NCBI RefSeq assembly: GCF_010211745.1 | Contig: NZ_PDWQ01000001.1 | Span: 620,001 to 684,000, forward strand | Source: Pseudoxanthomonas kalamensis DSM 18571 | Lineage (GTDB): Bacteria > Pseudomonadota > Gammaproteobacteria > Xanthomonadales > Xanthomonadaceae | Direction of reading: 5' to 3' | Length of the DNA: 64,000 nucleotides | Shown here: positions 42,145 to 47,249 of the stretch, piece after piece | Numbering within the stretch: the first letter of the stretch is position 1 | Layout: every line of letters begins with the position of its first letter | Position numbers and translations under genes: made by a program | Notes under the pieces: model-generated | Database searches by the model: none | What the model was told of the DNA's origin: nothing | The model's input: only the letters and a program-made list of their open reading frames with translations

Positions 42145-43476
42145 ATGAGCAAGCAACAGGACCAGATCAACGCCCTGCAGAAGGACTGGGACACCAATCC
42201 GCGCTGGAAGGGCGTCAAGCGCGACTACAGCGCCGCCGACGTGGTGCGCCTGCGCGGCAGCCTGCAGCCCGAATACACCCTGGCCAAGCGCGGCGCCGAG
42301 AAACTGTGGAAGCTGGTCAACGGCGAAGCCAAGAAAGGCTATGTGAACTCGTTCGGCGCGATCACCGCCGGTCAGGCCATGCAGCAGGCCAAGGCCGGGC
42401 TGGAAGCGGTGTACCTGTCCGGCTGGCAGGTGGCCGCCGACGGCAACACCTCCGAGACCATGTACCCCGACCAGTCGCTGTACGCGTACAACTCGGTGCC
42501 GACCATGGTGCGGCGGATCAACAACACCTTCCAGCGCGCCGACGAGATCCAGTGGAAGGCGATCTGCGACGGCAAGGTCAAGGAAGCCGATGCGGTCGAT
42601 TTCTTCCTGCCGATCGTCGCCGACGGCGAAGCCGGCTTCGGCGGCGTGCTGAACGCCTACGAGCTGATGAAGAACATGATCGCCGCCGGTGCCGCCGGCG
42701 TGCATTTCGAGGACCAGCTGGCCGCGGTCAAGAAGTGCGGCCACATGGGCGGCAAGGTGCTGGTGCCGACCCAGGAAGCGGTACAGAAGCTGACCGCCGC
42801 GCGCCTGGCCGCCGACGTGATGGGCGTGCCGACCATCGTGCTGGCGCGCACCGACGCCGAGGCCGCCAACCTGCTGACCTCGGACTTCGACGACAACGAT
42901 CGTCCGTTCGTCACCGGCGAGCGCACCGGCGAAGGTTTCTACCGGGTCCGCAACGGCCTGGAGCAGTCGATCAGCCGCGGTGTGGCTTATGCCGCCTACG
43001 CCGATCTGGTGTGGTGCGAGACCGGCACCCCCGACCTGGGTTTCGCCCGCGAGTTCGCCCAGGCCGTGCATGCCGCGCATCCGGGCAAGCTGTTGAGCTA
43101 CAACTGCTCGCCCAGCTTCAACTGGAAGAAGAACCTGGACGACAAGACCATCGCCAAGTTCCAGGACGAGCTGTCGGCGATGGGCTACAAGTATCAGTTC
43201 ATCACCCTGGCCGGCATCCACATCAACTGGTACAACACCTTCAAGTTCGCCCACGACTATGCGCGCGGCGAAGGCATGCGGCATTACGTCGAGCAGGTGC
43301 AGGAGCCGGAGTTCGCCGCGCGCGAGCAGGGCTACACCTTCGTTTCGCACCAGCAGGAAGTCGGCGCTGGCTACTTCGACGACGTGACCACGGTGATCCA
43401 GGGCGGCGCCTCCAGCGTCACCGCGCTGACCGGTTCCACCGAGGAAGCGCAGTTCCACGGCGAGAAGGCCGCGTAA
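42145..43476 (+). CDS. aceA: Isocitrate lyase
   Basis: A 443-residue enzyme that splits isocitrate to glyoxylate and succinate. The active-site signature [17 protein letters not shown] holds the catalytic Cys, and the metal/substrate loops are [12 protein letters not shown] and [12 protein letters not shown]. The start ATG 42145 has a strong GGAGAAGGA ribosome site. It forms a shunt operon with aceB, and the transcript ends at the hairpin at 43511-43541. Confidence 0.98.
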
Positions 43477-43510
43477 GCGCAAGCTTTCGCGTCAGCAGGC
43501 AACAAAAGAA

Positions 43511-43541
43511 GGGGCGGCCGTCGATGACGGTCGCCCCTTTT
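43511..43541. terminator. Bidirectional terminator between aceA and the anti-phage gene
   Basis: A 12-bp stem with one G-T pair and a GAT loop (43511-43537) is followed by TTTT on the plus strand. On the minus strand TTCTTTT follows, so it can also end the convergent deaminase transcript. Confidence 0.9.
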
Positions 43542-43554
43542 ACGCTGGGGGGCT

Positions 43555-45177
43555 TCAGCTGTTTTTCCTTGCCTGAATCGCATCTTCGATGCGTTTGACT
43601 ATTCGCGATTCAAGCTGAATGTAGTTATCGATGAATTCAATGGATTTTTTCTTGGCGCTTGAGGGTGTAACTCGTATAGCTTTTCCTTGACTGTCCTTTC
43701 GGCCGTCAAGTGAGTAGAAAAGGTCACGAAATCTGTTCGGAGAAACGCCTTCGAAGTTTAAGAAAGCAACTTTTCCATCAGCCCTCGATTCCCCCCATGC
43801 GACCTGTTCGTCAGGGTCATGGGCTATGTCGTCGTCGTGCAGCTCAATAGCCAAGCTTTTCGCGTACGGCTCGATGAAATAGACACTTGATATTCCCGCT
43901 GCAACTATGTGTCTTGCGCAGTTGTGGCACGGGTAGGTTGTCGTAAAGAGTATCGCGCCCTTAACACTATTTCCGCCCTCTCGTGAAACTGAAATAAGAG
44001 CATCCATTTCGGCGTGGACGGCTCGTGAGAACTCGATTAGATCTTTCAGGCGAGTGCTTGATCGGATGGATTTTGCTATGTCCGATGCTTTGTTGGAGTC
44101 GACGCCATGCTTCAATATTTCTGATTTAATTTCATCGCATAGAAAGTCTTTATGCTGGTCATTAAAGCAGTGACCACCTTCCTTGTGCACGCAGCGATTA
44201 TCGCCGTTGCCATATTCGTAGAGGCCGCCTCCCCGTCTTGGTACATCATTGCAGCCAGTGGAAAGTAATGAGCCTGTTGTGGAGACTATTGCTGCACCTA
44301 CTTGTCTGGATAGGCATGCGGAACGCATGGCAGCACTGAATGCAGCATACATTCCGCGCTCGGGAATCGTTGGAGTGATGCCTGGTTCGTCATGTAGCAG
44401 GTCAATGAATCGCTTCAGTTGCTCAGAAAGGTCTCGGCTATTCCCGCTAGTATTTCTGAGGAAGAAATCTGCAGACTTCAGAGTTTTCTCGAGTTGCTGC
44501 CCTCTGTTGCTTCGGCCGTCTTTATTTGATTCTGCGCGGTCTCGATCCATTAATTTAACCGCTTCAGGTTCAGTCATGCGCTTGGCCATCAGGTTGCGCT
44601 TTCGCCTTTCGTACCCTGATAGGGTGCCGACTAGGAAAAAGAGGTTCCCATATACGTCTCTAAGAAGCTGAACTTCTTTTGGGTTCTTTAGTTGGTCGAT
44701 AACGTACGCTACCCGCTTCGGGGTAACGTGCTCAGGATCTACTTCTTTGGCTTCGTCAGCTGTCTGTGCTGAATTAAGTCGATCTAATGCGATAGCTTGC
44801 AAAGCTATCTGCGCACCTAGATCTTCACCCAAAACCTCCCGAAGATCATTTCCTAAGTCTTGGAAAGAAGAAATGCGACTATATTCGCCTATAGTTGCAT
44901 CAGTTTGATTTGGCACTTTCAGTTCGTGTGCAAGCTCTGAGAAGTGTTCAGTTACTTTGATGTGAACAACTCGATATCCACGATTTTCGAGCTGTTGCTG
45001 CAACTCTTTGCGGACAAGGTCGATTCCACAACCTACCGGGCCACTAAGTGCCATAACGAGTTCCGGGGAGAGGCGTCCACTCAGATCCCCTCGCGCGTCG
45101 CCTTTCTGAGAGCCGACATCACTCGTTGTATTTCTCGCAGGGGTGGCGGCCTGCAGTTGAGCTGCGTTCACATTCAT
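43555..45177 (-). CDS. avcD: Anti-phage dCTP/dCMP deaminase, AvcD family
   Basis: A 540-residue two-domain defence protein. The N-terminal P-loop kinase-like domain (~40-260) has an atypical Walker A, ALSGPVGCGIDL (residues 43-54), without the usual Lys. The C-terminal zinc deaminase domain has HAE (388-390) and TTYPCHNCARH with PCHNC (416-420), plus further Cys/His in RCVHKEGGHCFN. AvcD-type proteins deaminate dCTP/dCMP, depleting cytosine nucleotides during phage infection, and are controlled by a cognate antitoxin RNA in Vibrio. The gene is visibly AT-richer than its neighbours and lies alone between aceA and comM, so it looks horizontally acquired. The ATG at 45177 has GGGGAG only 2 nt upstream. 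Confidence 0.85.
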   Translation of the reverse strand: MNVNAAQLQAATPARNTTSDVGSQKGDARGDLSGRLSPELVMALSGPVGCGIDLVRKELQQQLENRGYRVVHIKVTEHFSELAHELKVPNQTDATIGEYSRISSFQDLGNDLREVLGEDLGAQIALQAIALDRLNSAQTADEAKEVDPEHVTPKRVAYVIDQLKNPKEVQLLRDVYGNLFFLVGTLSGYERRKRNLMAKRMTEPEAVKLMDRDRAESNKDGRSNRGQQLEKTLKSADFFLRNTSGNSRDLSEQLKRFIDLLHDEPGITPTIPERGMYAAFSAAMRSACLSRQVGAAIVSTTGSLLSTGCNDVPRRGGGLYEYGNGDNRCVHKEGGHCFNDQHKDFLCDEIKSEILKHGVDSNKASDIAKSIRSSTRLKDLIEFSRAVHAEMDALISVSREGGNSVKGAILFTTTYPCHNCARHIVAAGISSVYFIEPYAKSLAIELHDDDIAHDPDEQVAWGESRADGKVAFLNFEGVSPNRFRDLFYSLDGRKDSQGKAIRVTPSSAKKKSIEFIDNYIQLESRIVKRIEDAIQARKNS

Positions 45178-45219
45178 AACTCCCCGGTTCAGGAGAGTGA
45201 ATATAGAACAGCTGGGACC

Positions 45220-45417
45220 TCAATCGGGCAGTCGGGCTGCGAATTCCAACAATCGGCGCTTTGCGTCTGCGCTTTGCGAGTTGACCGGTCCCGGTTTGCT
45301 GGGGAACTGGACGATCGTCGCCGTGGCTAATTCCCGCTGGGTGAGACTTAGCTCAAGCTGAGAATTAGAGGAGAGTTCTTGCGCTGGTCGAGATCGACTG
45401 TCTAGCTTTTTGCGCAT
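45220..45417 (-). CDS. Putative 65-residue upstream ORF of the avcD locus
   Basis: It starts at ATG 45417 with GGAG 6 nt upstream and ends 42 bp before avcD. The N-terminus is basic (MRKKLDSRSRP), the middle reads QRELATATIVQFPSKP and the C-terminus is helical (DAKRRLLEFAARLPD). No known family, signal or membrane helix. It could encode an antitoxin or regulator, or the DNA may act only as a leader/antitoxin RNA, since avcD systems use RNA inhibitors. Protein-coding status is therefore tentative. Confidence 0.5.
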   Translation of the reverse strand: MRKKLDSRSRPAQELSSNSQLELSLTQRELATATIVQFPSKPGPVNSQSADAKRRLLEFAARLPD

Positions 45418-45481
45418 GTGTGGCTCCGAAAAGCAAGCGGGTGAGATCGCAAACGTCATTTTTGCGTTAGGAGCTTTTGGC

Positions 45482-45500
45482 GTTCAAGTTCAGTGTTCAA
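45482..45500 (-). repeat. Triplicate GTTCA repeat upstream of the small ORF
   Basis: GTTCAAGTTCAGTGTTCAA on the plus strand has GTTCA at 45482, 45488 and 45495. It lies in the leader between the promoter and the small ORF. Confidence 0.4.
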
Positions 45501-45546
45501 TAAAGAGGTGAAGTAGTCAAACTGCGACATCAAACCTAATTCATAT

Positions 45547-45575
45547 AAAATAGCACATAAGGTTTTGATATACAA
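45547..45575 (-). promoter_or_regulatory. Candidate promoter of the small ORF-avcD transcript
   Basis: On the minus strand TTGTAT (45570-45575) and TATTTT (45547-45552) are separated by exactly 17 bp. Transcription would start near 45540, giving a ~120-nt leader before the small ORF. The rest of the gap between the small ORF and comM (45418-45734) contains only the repeats listed here. Confidence 0.55.
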
Positions 45576-45597
45576 ATGAATTTATTGGAATATCAAA
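45564..45597. repeat. Inverted repeat overlapping the avcD promoter
   Basis: TTTGATAT (45564-45571) and ATATCAAA (45590-45597) are perfectly complementary, 18 bp apart. The first arm overlaps the -35 element, so a bound repressor could block the promoter. Confidence 0.45.
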
Positions 45598-45734
45598 TGC
45601 TCGGAATGAGCGCCTGACTTATAGCTTTGATGTGTGGAGCATTAGCGGCCTGCTAAAGAAGGGGGAGGGGCTGAACAGGATCTGCTGACGGCCGGTATGG
45701 GTCGATGGTGAGGGTGGGCAATGTTTGCGCGTGC

Positions 45735-47249
45735 TCATGCCGCCCGCTGCGACGGGCCGCGGTCCAGCCGGCGGTAGCCCAGCGCTTCGGTCAGGTGCGC
45801 GCTGGCGATGTTGGTAGCGCCATCCAGGTCGGCGATGGTGCGCGCCACCCGCAGGATGCGGTGCATCGAGCGAGCCGACAGTTGCAGGCGCTCGATCGCG
45901 CGTTCCAACAGGGCCTGGTCGCGTTCGCCCAGGCGGCAGTCGCGCATGGTCTCGGCCTGGCCGAGTTGCGCGTTGGCCTTGCCGGCGCGTTGCAGTTGCA
46001 TGACGCGTGCACGTTCGACCCGGGCGCGGATGCGGGCGCTGTCCTCTCCGTTGGGCGCGTCCGGACGTAGTTCCTGTGGTGGCAGTCGCGGCACGTCCAC
46101 ATGCAGGTCGATGCGGTCGAGCAGCGGTCCGGAAATCTTCGCCCGGTAGCGCCGGACCTGTTCCGGGTTGCAGCGGCAGCGTCCGCCGGGATCGCCGGCC
46201 CAGCCGCAGGGGCAGGGGTTCATCGCTGCGACCAGCTGGAAACGGGCCGGAAATTCGGCGCTGCGCGCGGCCCGCGACACGGTCACGGTGCCCGATTCCA
46301 GTGGCTCGCGCAGCACCTCCAGTGCACGTCGGTCCCATTCGGGCAATTCGTCCAGGAACAGCACGCCGTTGTGCGCCAGCGAGATCTCGCCGGGGCGCGG
46401 ATCGGCGCCGCCGCCGACCAGTGCGACCGCGCTGGCGGTGTGGTGGGGCGCACGATACGGGCGTTGCCGCCAGCGCGCCGGGTCCAGTCCGCGACCGCTG
46501 ACCGAGGCGATGGCCGCGGTTTCCAGCGCTTCTTCCTCGCTGGCTGGCGGCAGCAATCCTGGCAATCGCGAGGCCAGCAGGGTCTTGCCGCAGCCCGGAG
46601 TGCCGACCAGCAGCAGATGATGGTTGCCGGCGGCGGCCACTTCCAGTGCGCGGCGCGCATGTGCCTGCCCGCGCACGTCGGCCATGTCCGGAATCGTGAT
46701 CGCCTGTGGTGGTGGCGCGCAGGCCTCGGGCAGCACTTTGGTGCCGTTCAATGCGGCGCAGACTTCCAGCAGGGTGCGTGCGGTCTGCGCCTGCACGTCG
46801 CGGGCCAGTGCGGCTTCGGCACCGCTGCCGGTGGGGACCACCAGCCGGCGACCGGCACGTGCGGCGGCCAGTGCGGCCGGCAGTACACCGTCGATGGCGC
46901 GCAGTTCGCCGGTCAGCCCCAGCTCGCCGAGGAATTCGCAATCGGCCAGCGCGTCGCGGTCGATCTGTCCGCTGGCGGCGAGAATGCCCAAGGCGATCGG
47001 CAGGTCGAAGCGGCCGCCGTCCTTGGGCAGATCGGCTGGTGCCAGGTTGACGGTGATGCGCCGGGCCGGGAATTCGAATTGCGCGCACAGGATGGCCGCG
47101 CGCACGCGGTCGCGCGATTCGCGCACCGCTGCTTCCGGCAGGCCGACGATATGGGTGGCCGGCAGTCCACCGGACAGGTGCACTTCCACCCGGACCGGAG
47201 GCGCGGCCACGCCCGCGCGTGCACGGCTGTGCACCAGAGCCAGGCTCAT
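45735..47249 (-). CDS. comM: Magnesium chelatase subunit I-like AAA+ protein ComM (YifB)
   Basis: A 504-residue DNA branch-migration helicase that extends homologous donor strands in natural transformation. The N-terminal ChlI-like domain (GLPEAAVRESRDRVRAA) is followed by AAA+ with Walker A VGTPGCGKT (~residue 217), Walker B GVLFLDELPEW and a cysteine-rich segment (MNPCPCGWAGDPGGRCRC). Length is normal. ubiK begins 11 bp upstream on the same strand. Confidence 0.95.
   Translation of the reverse strand: MSLALVHSRARAGVAAPPVRVEVHLSGGLPATHIVGLPEAAVRESRDRVRAAILCAQFEFPARRITVNLAPADLPKDGGRFDLPIALGILAASGQIDRDALADCEFLGELGLTGELRAIDGVLPAALAAARAGRRLVVPTGSGAEAALARDVQAQTARTLLEVCAALNGTKVLPEACAPPPQAITIPDMADVRGQAHARRALEVAAAGNHHLLLVGTPGCGKTLLASRLPGLLPPASEEEALETAAIASVSGRGLDPARWRQRPYRAPHHTASAVALVGGGADPRPGEISLAHNGVLFLDELPEWDRRALEVLREPLESGTVTVSRAARSAEFPARFQLVAAMNPCPCGWAGDPGGRCRCNPEQVRRYRAKISGPLLDRIDLHVDVPRLPPQELRPDAPNGEDSARIRARVERARVMQLQRAGKANAQLGQAETMRDCRLGERDQALLERAIERLQLSARSMHRILRVARTIADLDGATNIASAHLTEALGYRRLDRGPSQRAA

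Follow-up and report, generated by a model that had tools for sequence, protein, structure and literature searches.

A dCTP deaminase gene of the AvcD family in Pseudoxanthomonas kalamensis is preceded by a small open reading frame that probably encodes a protein partner with a clamp-like motif

The closest described system is AvcID of Vibrio, in which the deaminase AvcD is combined with the AvcI RNA and which has been described as a type III toxin-antitoxin system; our locus has in common with it the AvcD family and a presumed regulatory element directly upstream. We analysed a stretch of 64,000 nucleotides (the window) of Pseudoxanthomonas kalamensis DSM 18571 (contig NZ_PDWQ01000001.1, positions 620,001 to 684,000) from a genome assembly of 3.03 Mb in 160 contigs. 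A preliminary description had placed an AvcD-type anti-phage deaminase at 43543-45650, as a single-gene insert between aceA and comM. The single-gene part was wrong: a second open reading frame (ORF), at 45220-45417 on the minus strand, lies inside that interval and has coding relatives. On balance we lean towards a horizontally acquired two-gene anti-phage module, in which a small protein would control AvcD and, in its motif-bearing forms, would tie AvcD to the sliding clamp. The module consists of the following features.

43555..45177, minus strand: avcD-type anti-phage dCTP deaminase gene, 540 amino acids (NF041025, PADLOC dCTPase, PF00383, third-position composition)
45220..45417, minus strand: small ORF, probable partner, 65 amino acids, MRKKLDSR...RRLLEFAARLPD (place, GGAG, look-alikes in relatives)
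45343..45360, minus strand: QLELSL, residues 20-25 of the small protein, a hexapeptide resembling beta-clamp-binding motifs (motif in partners, likeness to Hda)
45232..45285, minus strand: predicted helix towards the C-terminal end of the small protein, residues 45-62 (AlphaFold2)

The large gene is, by its sequence, of a known kind, an AvcD-family deaminase. Its ORF is intact, with 540 codons and an ATG start. A search with hidden Markov models (HMMs) bore out the family named in the preliminary description: the protein scored 470.7 bits against NF041025, the equivalog model of anti-phage dCTP deaminases (cut-off 400, profile positions 1-436 of 437), and matched the PADLOC dCTPase model at 1.5e-168. 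The two zinc-deaminase motifs given there were also found (H388 A389 E390; P416-C-H-N-C420), together with a PF00383 deaminase domain (58.7 bits, cut-off 25). H-A-E and P-C-x-x-C were invariant across 87 AvcD sequences (alignment A4), with N419 replaced by S in some relatives. The described P-loop kinase-like domain would be a degenerate one: the N-terminal region matched AdkA-like/UPF0200 proteins at 1.6e-7 (profile A4), but its P-loop reads GPVGCGID and lacks the Walker A lysine, and GK[S/T] was absent at this site in the consensus of the 87 sequences as well. No solved AvcD structure was found; the structural relatives were deaminase-domain and P-loop proteins only. As a member of this family, the window's AvcD would be expected to deaminate dCTP or dCMP. 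The described contrast between an AT-rich gene and GC-rich neighbours was confirmed, avcD having a G+C content (GC) of 0.486 and a third-position G+C content (GC3) of 0.46, against GC3 values of 0.81-0.91 in five neighbour genes. The codon-usage (CAI-like) values were calculated with aceB, aceA, comM and ppk2 as the reference set and are therefore circular for these genes.

The small ORF lies 42 nt ahead of avcD on the same strand. With an alternative in-frame start (ATG at 45459) the product would have 79 amino acids; the 65-residue form is favoured because a GGAG precedes the ATG at 45417. Its GC3 of 0.58 gives it a foreign composition in common with avcD. AlphaFold2 predicted a single helix (residues 45-62), and the mean predicted local distance difference test was 94 and 91 for the two final ten-residue blocks. 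Look-alike small ORFs occupy the same place in L062 and, within the window's clade, in L102, L103 and L211 (the L103 sequence there equals that of L062, whose AvcD is 55% identical to the window's), and the window protein is 34-40% identical to the proteins of L103, L102 and L211. The ORF was assigned to the group because of its place, this likeness and the alignment. No plasmid matched the 65-residue protein in tblastn at E 1, seven small proteins gave nothing better than E 0.07 against Pfam, NCBIfam, PADLOC and PHROGs, and a Pfam search with 60 members of the small-protein alignment (A3) gave two single weak matches (0.0017, 0.0049).

Distribution of the partner was scored in 103 loci, the nearest relatives, comprising the best 80 of 392 genome matches and 23 of 29 viral matches; the six viral loci L181, L185, L190, L192, L194 and L199 were not entered, and near-duplicates (L183/L184; L187-L189/L200; L156/L164; L172/L180; L160/L175) were kept. 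When genome contigs were scanned, a single-protein query gave no relative and an alignment query found them. A small ORF that ended in tryptophan (Trp), was hand-defined or bore the motif adjoined avcD in 83 of the 103 loci, and in 79 under the mechanical rule of a Trp end or the motif alone. It stood upstream in 45 loci and downstream in 38. The upstream set holds 51 sequences (45 inside the 103), its non-Trp types being defined by hand-written tail patterns, and some downstream ORFs (e.g. L166, L168, L176) were counted on motif and place only. Several of the 20 partnerless loci contain look-alikes by eye (e.g. L120, L129, L146, L153, L161, L167, L171, L187, L193); in L182 the upstream DNA was too short to judge. 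An HMM built from 39 Trp-ended sequences and searched against the 18837 ORFs in 110 loci gave 16 non-seed matches at E<1, all adjoining avcD and on both sides of it, with stray matches from E 3.2 onwards. On plasmids from Photobacterium, E. coli and Klebsiella, the records annotate a "hypothetical protein" of 56-61 residues, ending in Trp, ahead of avcD. Among 16 held-out loci, of which L226, L227 and L228 overlap the discovery set and avcD was not located in L237 and L240, L225 had a Trp-ended partner and ten had none by the set rules; two of these ten, L229 and L230, had ORFs of 202 and 216 residues at the partner place, neither of them convincing as a partner.

Some observations on these loci stand apart. 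In two plasmids of about 4.6 kb (L098 and L221, one from Klebsiella and one from E. coli) the main cargo is avcD together with a small ORF that ends in Trp; 25 Klebsiella records matched, many of about 4.6 kb. Two alphaproteobacterial plasmids have a larger ORF directly downstream of avcD (L223, 3607-4125, 172 residues; L224, 3563-4102, 179 residues), and the 202-residue ORF at that place in L229, from the same phylum, lacks the clamp-like motif. Shortened avcD ORFs occur in L217/L114, L218 and L219, either with 432 codons or reduced to the deaminase part, the open frame then having 220 codons.

Selection on the protein was assessed from the ratio of nonsynonymous to synonymous differences (pN/pS). 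All 15 upstream pairs gave ratios of 0.11-0.57, with codon position 3 taking most changes in each; several pairs share a member, and the amino acid identity of at least 0.42 and the protein-guided alignment bias these ratios towards low values. Shifted frames gave at least 0.80 save in two near-identical pairs. In hand-chosen pairs, eight of ten downstream comparisons fell at 0.06-0.56 and two very distant ones at 0.79 and 0.85, and for the five comparisons that involve the window ORF the ratio was 0.59-0.81 at a near-saturated pS of 0.72-0.83, where it decides little. Against a random-substitution null, amino acid similarity exceeded expectation in 9/9 upstream pairs (z 3.1-6.5); the distant pairs among them were aligned by protein, but three pairs (L104/L106, L152/L159, L135/L147) are closely related and align almost without gaps. 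A search of E. coli genomes with the E. coli plasmid locus returned one identical copy, of no use for selection tests. We judge the small ORF to be very probably coding in relatives and, with slightly less certainty, in the window, and its product to be a likely partner of AvcD. Overall confidence was lowered slightly because the window-ORF pairs are not decisive.

The pattern Q[LMF]x[LFM]x[LFV], which was written after the sequences had been viewed, matched 46 of 85 partner proteins. Position 2 was L in 40 and M in 6, position 4 was L in 33 and F in 13, and position 6 was F in 35, L in 10 and V in 1; the Q is fixed by the search pattern, so its invariance is no independent proof. The motif began at residues 5-23 in 45 proteins and at residue 37 in one. 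Among ORFs of 40-130 residues a similar pattern was found in 33/110 directly downstream and 10/106 directly upstream of avcD, compared with 17/1790 and 19/2465 in the background and 10/256 for ORFs directly downstream of other long ORFs; the Fisher tests on these counts treat ORFs as independent. The motif is QLSLDF in L110, L124 and L163 and QLKLNF in the flavobacterial L156 and L164, the downstream ORFs of L063, L215 and L216 read QLELRV, QLPLRI and QLELRI, and the larger neighbour in L224 has QLSFNL. In the available text of the cited papers, QLSLPL is the hexapeptide that Hda requires for binding the beta clamp (PMC3836487), QL[S/D]LF is the common clamp-binding motif, QLSLF is the clamp motif of PolC, and the dissociation constant given for a Pol III epsilon variant with QLSLPL is 0.38 uM (PMC12309361). 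Judged from the motif, clamp binding by the small proteins that carry it is predicted, a prediction that could equally well hold or fail. The same stretch might instead be a beta-strand by which the protein docks on AvcD: its alternating hydrophobic residues suit an edge strand, and the branch akin to AvcID keeps an upstream ORF without the motif. We consider such a docking strand rather unlikely, given that QLSLPL of Hda follows the same succession Q, L/M, x, L/F, x, F/L, that the L142 partner reads QLSLPL, letter for letter the Hda hexapeptide, that the 172-residue L223 ORF holds QLSLF, and that nearly all copies begin within the first 23 residues.

A midpoint-rooted AvcD tree (n = 87) was used to order these arrangements. 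The first clade to split (L177, L204, L205, L207) had no partner that we could find. In the next deep groups the partner is mostly downstream and bears the motif (altogether 31 rows of this kind, against 16 with no partner), and in the group of the window, with Dyella and Xanthomonas loci, it is upstream and motif-bearing. An upstream, Trp-ended and motif-less partner characterizes the Pseudomonas, Shewanella, Photobacterium, Vibrio and enterobacterial group (27/87 rows), into which the published Vibrio AvcID systems would fall by kinship. The node next to L145 has a support of 0.00, and L158 and L179 were labelled as Trp-ended for a Trp three residues from the end. A tentative account, to which we give somewhat less than an even chance, is that this branch of the family consists of two-gene modules whose clamp-motif partner controls AvcD and couples it to the replisome, and that AvcID is derived from such modules, with the gene upstream and its motif lost, so that the protein was overlooked.

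The working model for the two-gene module is as follows. The C-terminal strand-helix part of the microprotein would bind and restrain AvcD as a labile protein antitoxin; when a phage shuts off the host, the microprotein would disappear and the freed AvcD would deplete deoxycytidine nucleotides. QLELSL would tether the AvcD-microprotein complex to the beta sliding clamp, so that the deaminase would be linked to replication forks. Coding is well supported in relatives; control of AvcD and clamp binding are what we infer, and for a protein antitoxin role the chances appear evenly balanced.

Several observations weigh against this model, besides the bias of the upstream ratios, the indecisive window pairs and the late choice of the motif pattern. 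The motif is absent from the very branch akin to the published AvcID. There, AvcI is reported as an RNA that binds and inhibits AvcD (available parts of PMC10511110, PMC12409362 and PMC9455884), shut-off of transcription is reported to lead to loss of AvcI RNA and release of AvcD (available part of PMC10511110), and the portions of PMC12409362 that were available report no protein product of AvcI. A labile protein made from the AvcI RNA would also vanish at shut-off; RNA binding is nonetheless reported in these parts. For the small protein, the AlphaFold2 prediction reached a predicted template-modelling score of 0.31. The window protein has no terminal Trp, and the 39-sequence HMM missed its ORF up to E 10. 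No obvious partner was seen in V. nigripulchritudo (L222), nor, by the set rules, a motif- or Trp-bearing partner in ten divergent AvcD loci (L229-L236, L238, L239; L236 was judged in the first partner inspection only). The partner was thus not found across the whole NF041025 family, since these loci mostly exceed the cut-off (8/9 scanned, L236 not being among the nine).

The published RNA data made the leader itself a candidate for the regulator, and a hairpin was predicted in front of avcD.

45179..45198, minus strand: hairpin pairing the avcD Shine-Dalgarno sequence GGGGAG (folding, weak covariation in five sequences)

Covariation of this hairpin in the window clade (n = 5) was weak, 32/500 shuffles reaching its score; a comparable hairpin was predicted in L102, L103, L104 and L106, partly in L114, hardly in L107 and not in L105 and L108. 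As modelled, it may provide translational coupling between the small ORF and avcD. RNAalifold gave 0 pairs for six Pseudomonas-type leaders, and folding of the window leader was shuffle-like (z -0.08 and -0.41). Tandem repeats are typical of type III antitoxins; none were found in 45100-45760. Two matches to known RNA families, both below gathering, were taken as chance. A transcript with a dual function, in which an inhibitory RNA element is combined with a small protein (for example, the RNA inhibits and the protein localises AvcD), would reconcile the RNA findings in print with the evidence for coding; it is doubtful in view of the lack of conserved structure in the six sequences and of the short, weakly covarying hairpin of the window clade. 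That the AvcI place works solely as a noncoding antitoxin RNA on AvcD, the ORF being incidental or a translation leader, has behind it the AvcI experiments (PMC10511110, reviewed in PMC12409362, each in its available part) and the hairpin over the avcD Shine-Dalgarno sequence. We regard it as improbable: variation at synonymous sites goes with a conserved protein, the six Pseudomonas-type leaders share no pairs, the window leader folds like its shuffles and has no tandem repeats, and 38 loci have a related or motif-sharing ORF on the downstream side of avcD. A leader RNA acting in cis is by itself insufficient because the partner is found on either side of the gene. A stand-alone anti-phage dCTP deaminase with a chance ORF upstream is very improbable, even though family tools detect the large gene only, the ten divergent loci lack a convincing partner and the family HMM missed the window ORF, because the small ORF recurs in most of the nearer loci, relatives show selection on the protein and the three window-clade look-alikes hold the same place; the selection tests and the HMM and motif controls disfavour a chance ORF as such.

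The module is read as an arrival from elsewhere, and the flanks of the locus are as follows.

42145..43476, plus strand: aceA, isocitrate lyase (NF011645, 768 bits)
about 43503..43541, no strand assigned: GC-rich inverted repeat that separates the stop codons of the convergent genes aceA and avcD, presumably a terminator for both (read directly)
45418..45650, minus strand: AT-rich leader (GC 0.41), presumed promoter region of the module (composition)
45735..47249, minus strand: comM, a YifB-family ATPase (TIGR00368, 630 bits)

The preliminary description had the gene bounded by a bidirectional terminator and comM; comM and the inverted repeat are present, but a terminator scan of the window did not list the repeat at 43503-43541. 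A promoter scan returned no site on the minus strand of the leader, and the 64-kb window contains no tRNA genes. The gene is rare in the genus, and close relatives do not all keep it: the NF041025 cut-off was exceeded in 1/38 genomes, the window's own, and in none of its 37 congeners. At the level of the order, AvcD matches at E <=1e-30 were obtained in 5/397 genomes, and a family search with profile A2 at E 1e-60 gave 10/395, the window's genome being counted in both. One congener (G019) has a distant AvcD copy of 370.7 bits, below the cut-off, on a contig other than that of its comM; no small partner of this AvcD-like protein (locus L003) was found. It is preceded by a 407-residue ORF with a P-loop by eye, possibly another arrangement.

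The comM-aceA gap measures 2265 bp in the window and is foreign in composition there; among the 32 relatives that carry comM and aceA on a single contig it spans 98 to 18083 bp, and in two of them it is 98 and 370 bp. Similarity between the window and its relatives ends at about 43480 on the aceA side and about 45739 on the comM side. In many relatives the interval is filled by an ORF which, from its translations, we take to be an S9-like peptidase; no ortholog of it was found in the window's genome, where the only matches have 25-40% identity. A clean empty site with target repeats was not found, the interval being simply variable, and candidate mobile-element ends were short repeats taken as chance. 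The rarity in the genus, the foreign GC3, the variable gap and the end of similarity at aceA and comM support avcD as a horizontally acquired arrival at a variable place. Two further observations concern comM: in G021 and G027 its matches are split, as by an insertion, with the parts about 18.4 kb and 36.5 kb apart, and in G001 and G015 they contain one in-frame TAG.

Among the literature matches listed, which leave subscription journals mostly uncovered and were available in part, we recognised neither a protein encoded at AvcI nor a clamp motif beside a dCTP deaminase. As far as we could see, what is new is the organisation as two genes, of which the small partner is coding, evolves fast and often bears a clamp-like motif; the deaminase itself is known. 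NF041025 matches the window's AvcD over its full length; this model and PADLOC dCTPase cover the large protein only, and, if the two-gene reading is true, clones of "single-gene" dCTP deaminases may miss half the module. A Trp-ended small ORF occupies the AvcID-like place in loci of Photobacterium, V. coralliilyticus, Vibrio sp. S9_S30, E. coli and Klebsiella. Unlike AvcI, the window element is read as a protein gene, with a QLELSL that the Vibrio-like branch lacks, and no inhibitory RNA structure was found in it. If true, a protein-selected partner that flanks the deaminase gene on one side or the other would alter the type III classification of AvcID. The locus would be a type II toxin-antitoxin system if the small protein, whose gene adjoins avcD, acts as inhibitor. 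With Hda and other clamp-motif proteins (QLSLPL; QL[S/D]LF) the small protein shares a QLxLx[L/F] near its N-terminus; it differs from Hda in that no AAA+ domain was seen and in being encoded beside a deaminase gene. SocB belongs to a toxin-antitoxin system that acts on the sliding clamp. RipAB of S. pneumoniae is likewise a two-gene module linked to DnaN, a link that in the window is predicted from the motif. In RipAB the toxin itself acts on the clamp (available part of PMC12795458), whereas in the window the clamp motif would sit on the small protein that accompanies a nucleotide-depleting enzyme, which, if true, makes it a concrete candidate for tying nucleotide depletion to replication.

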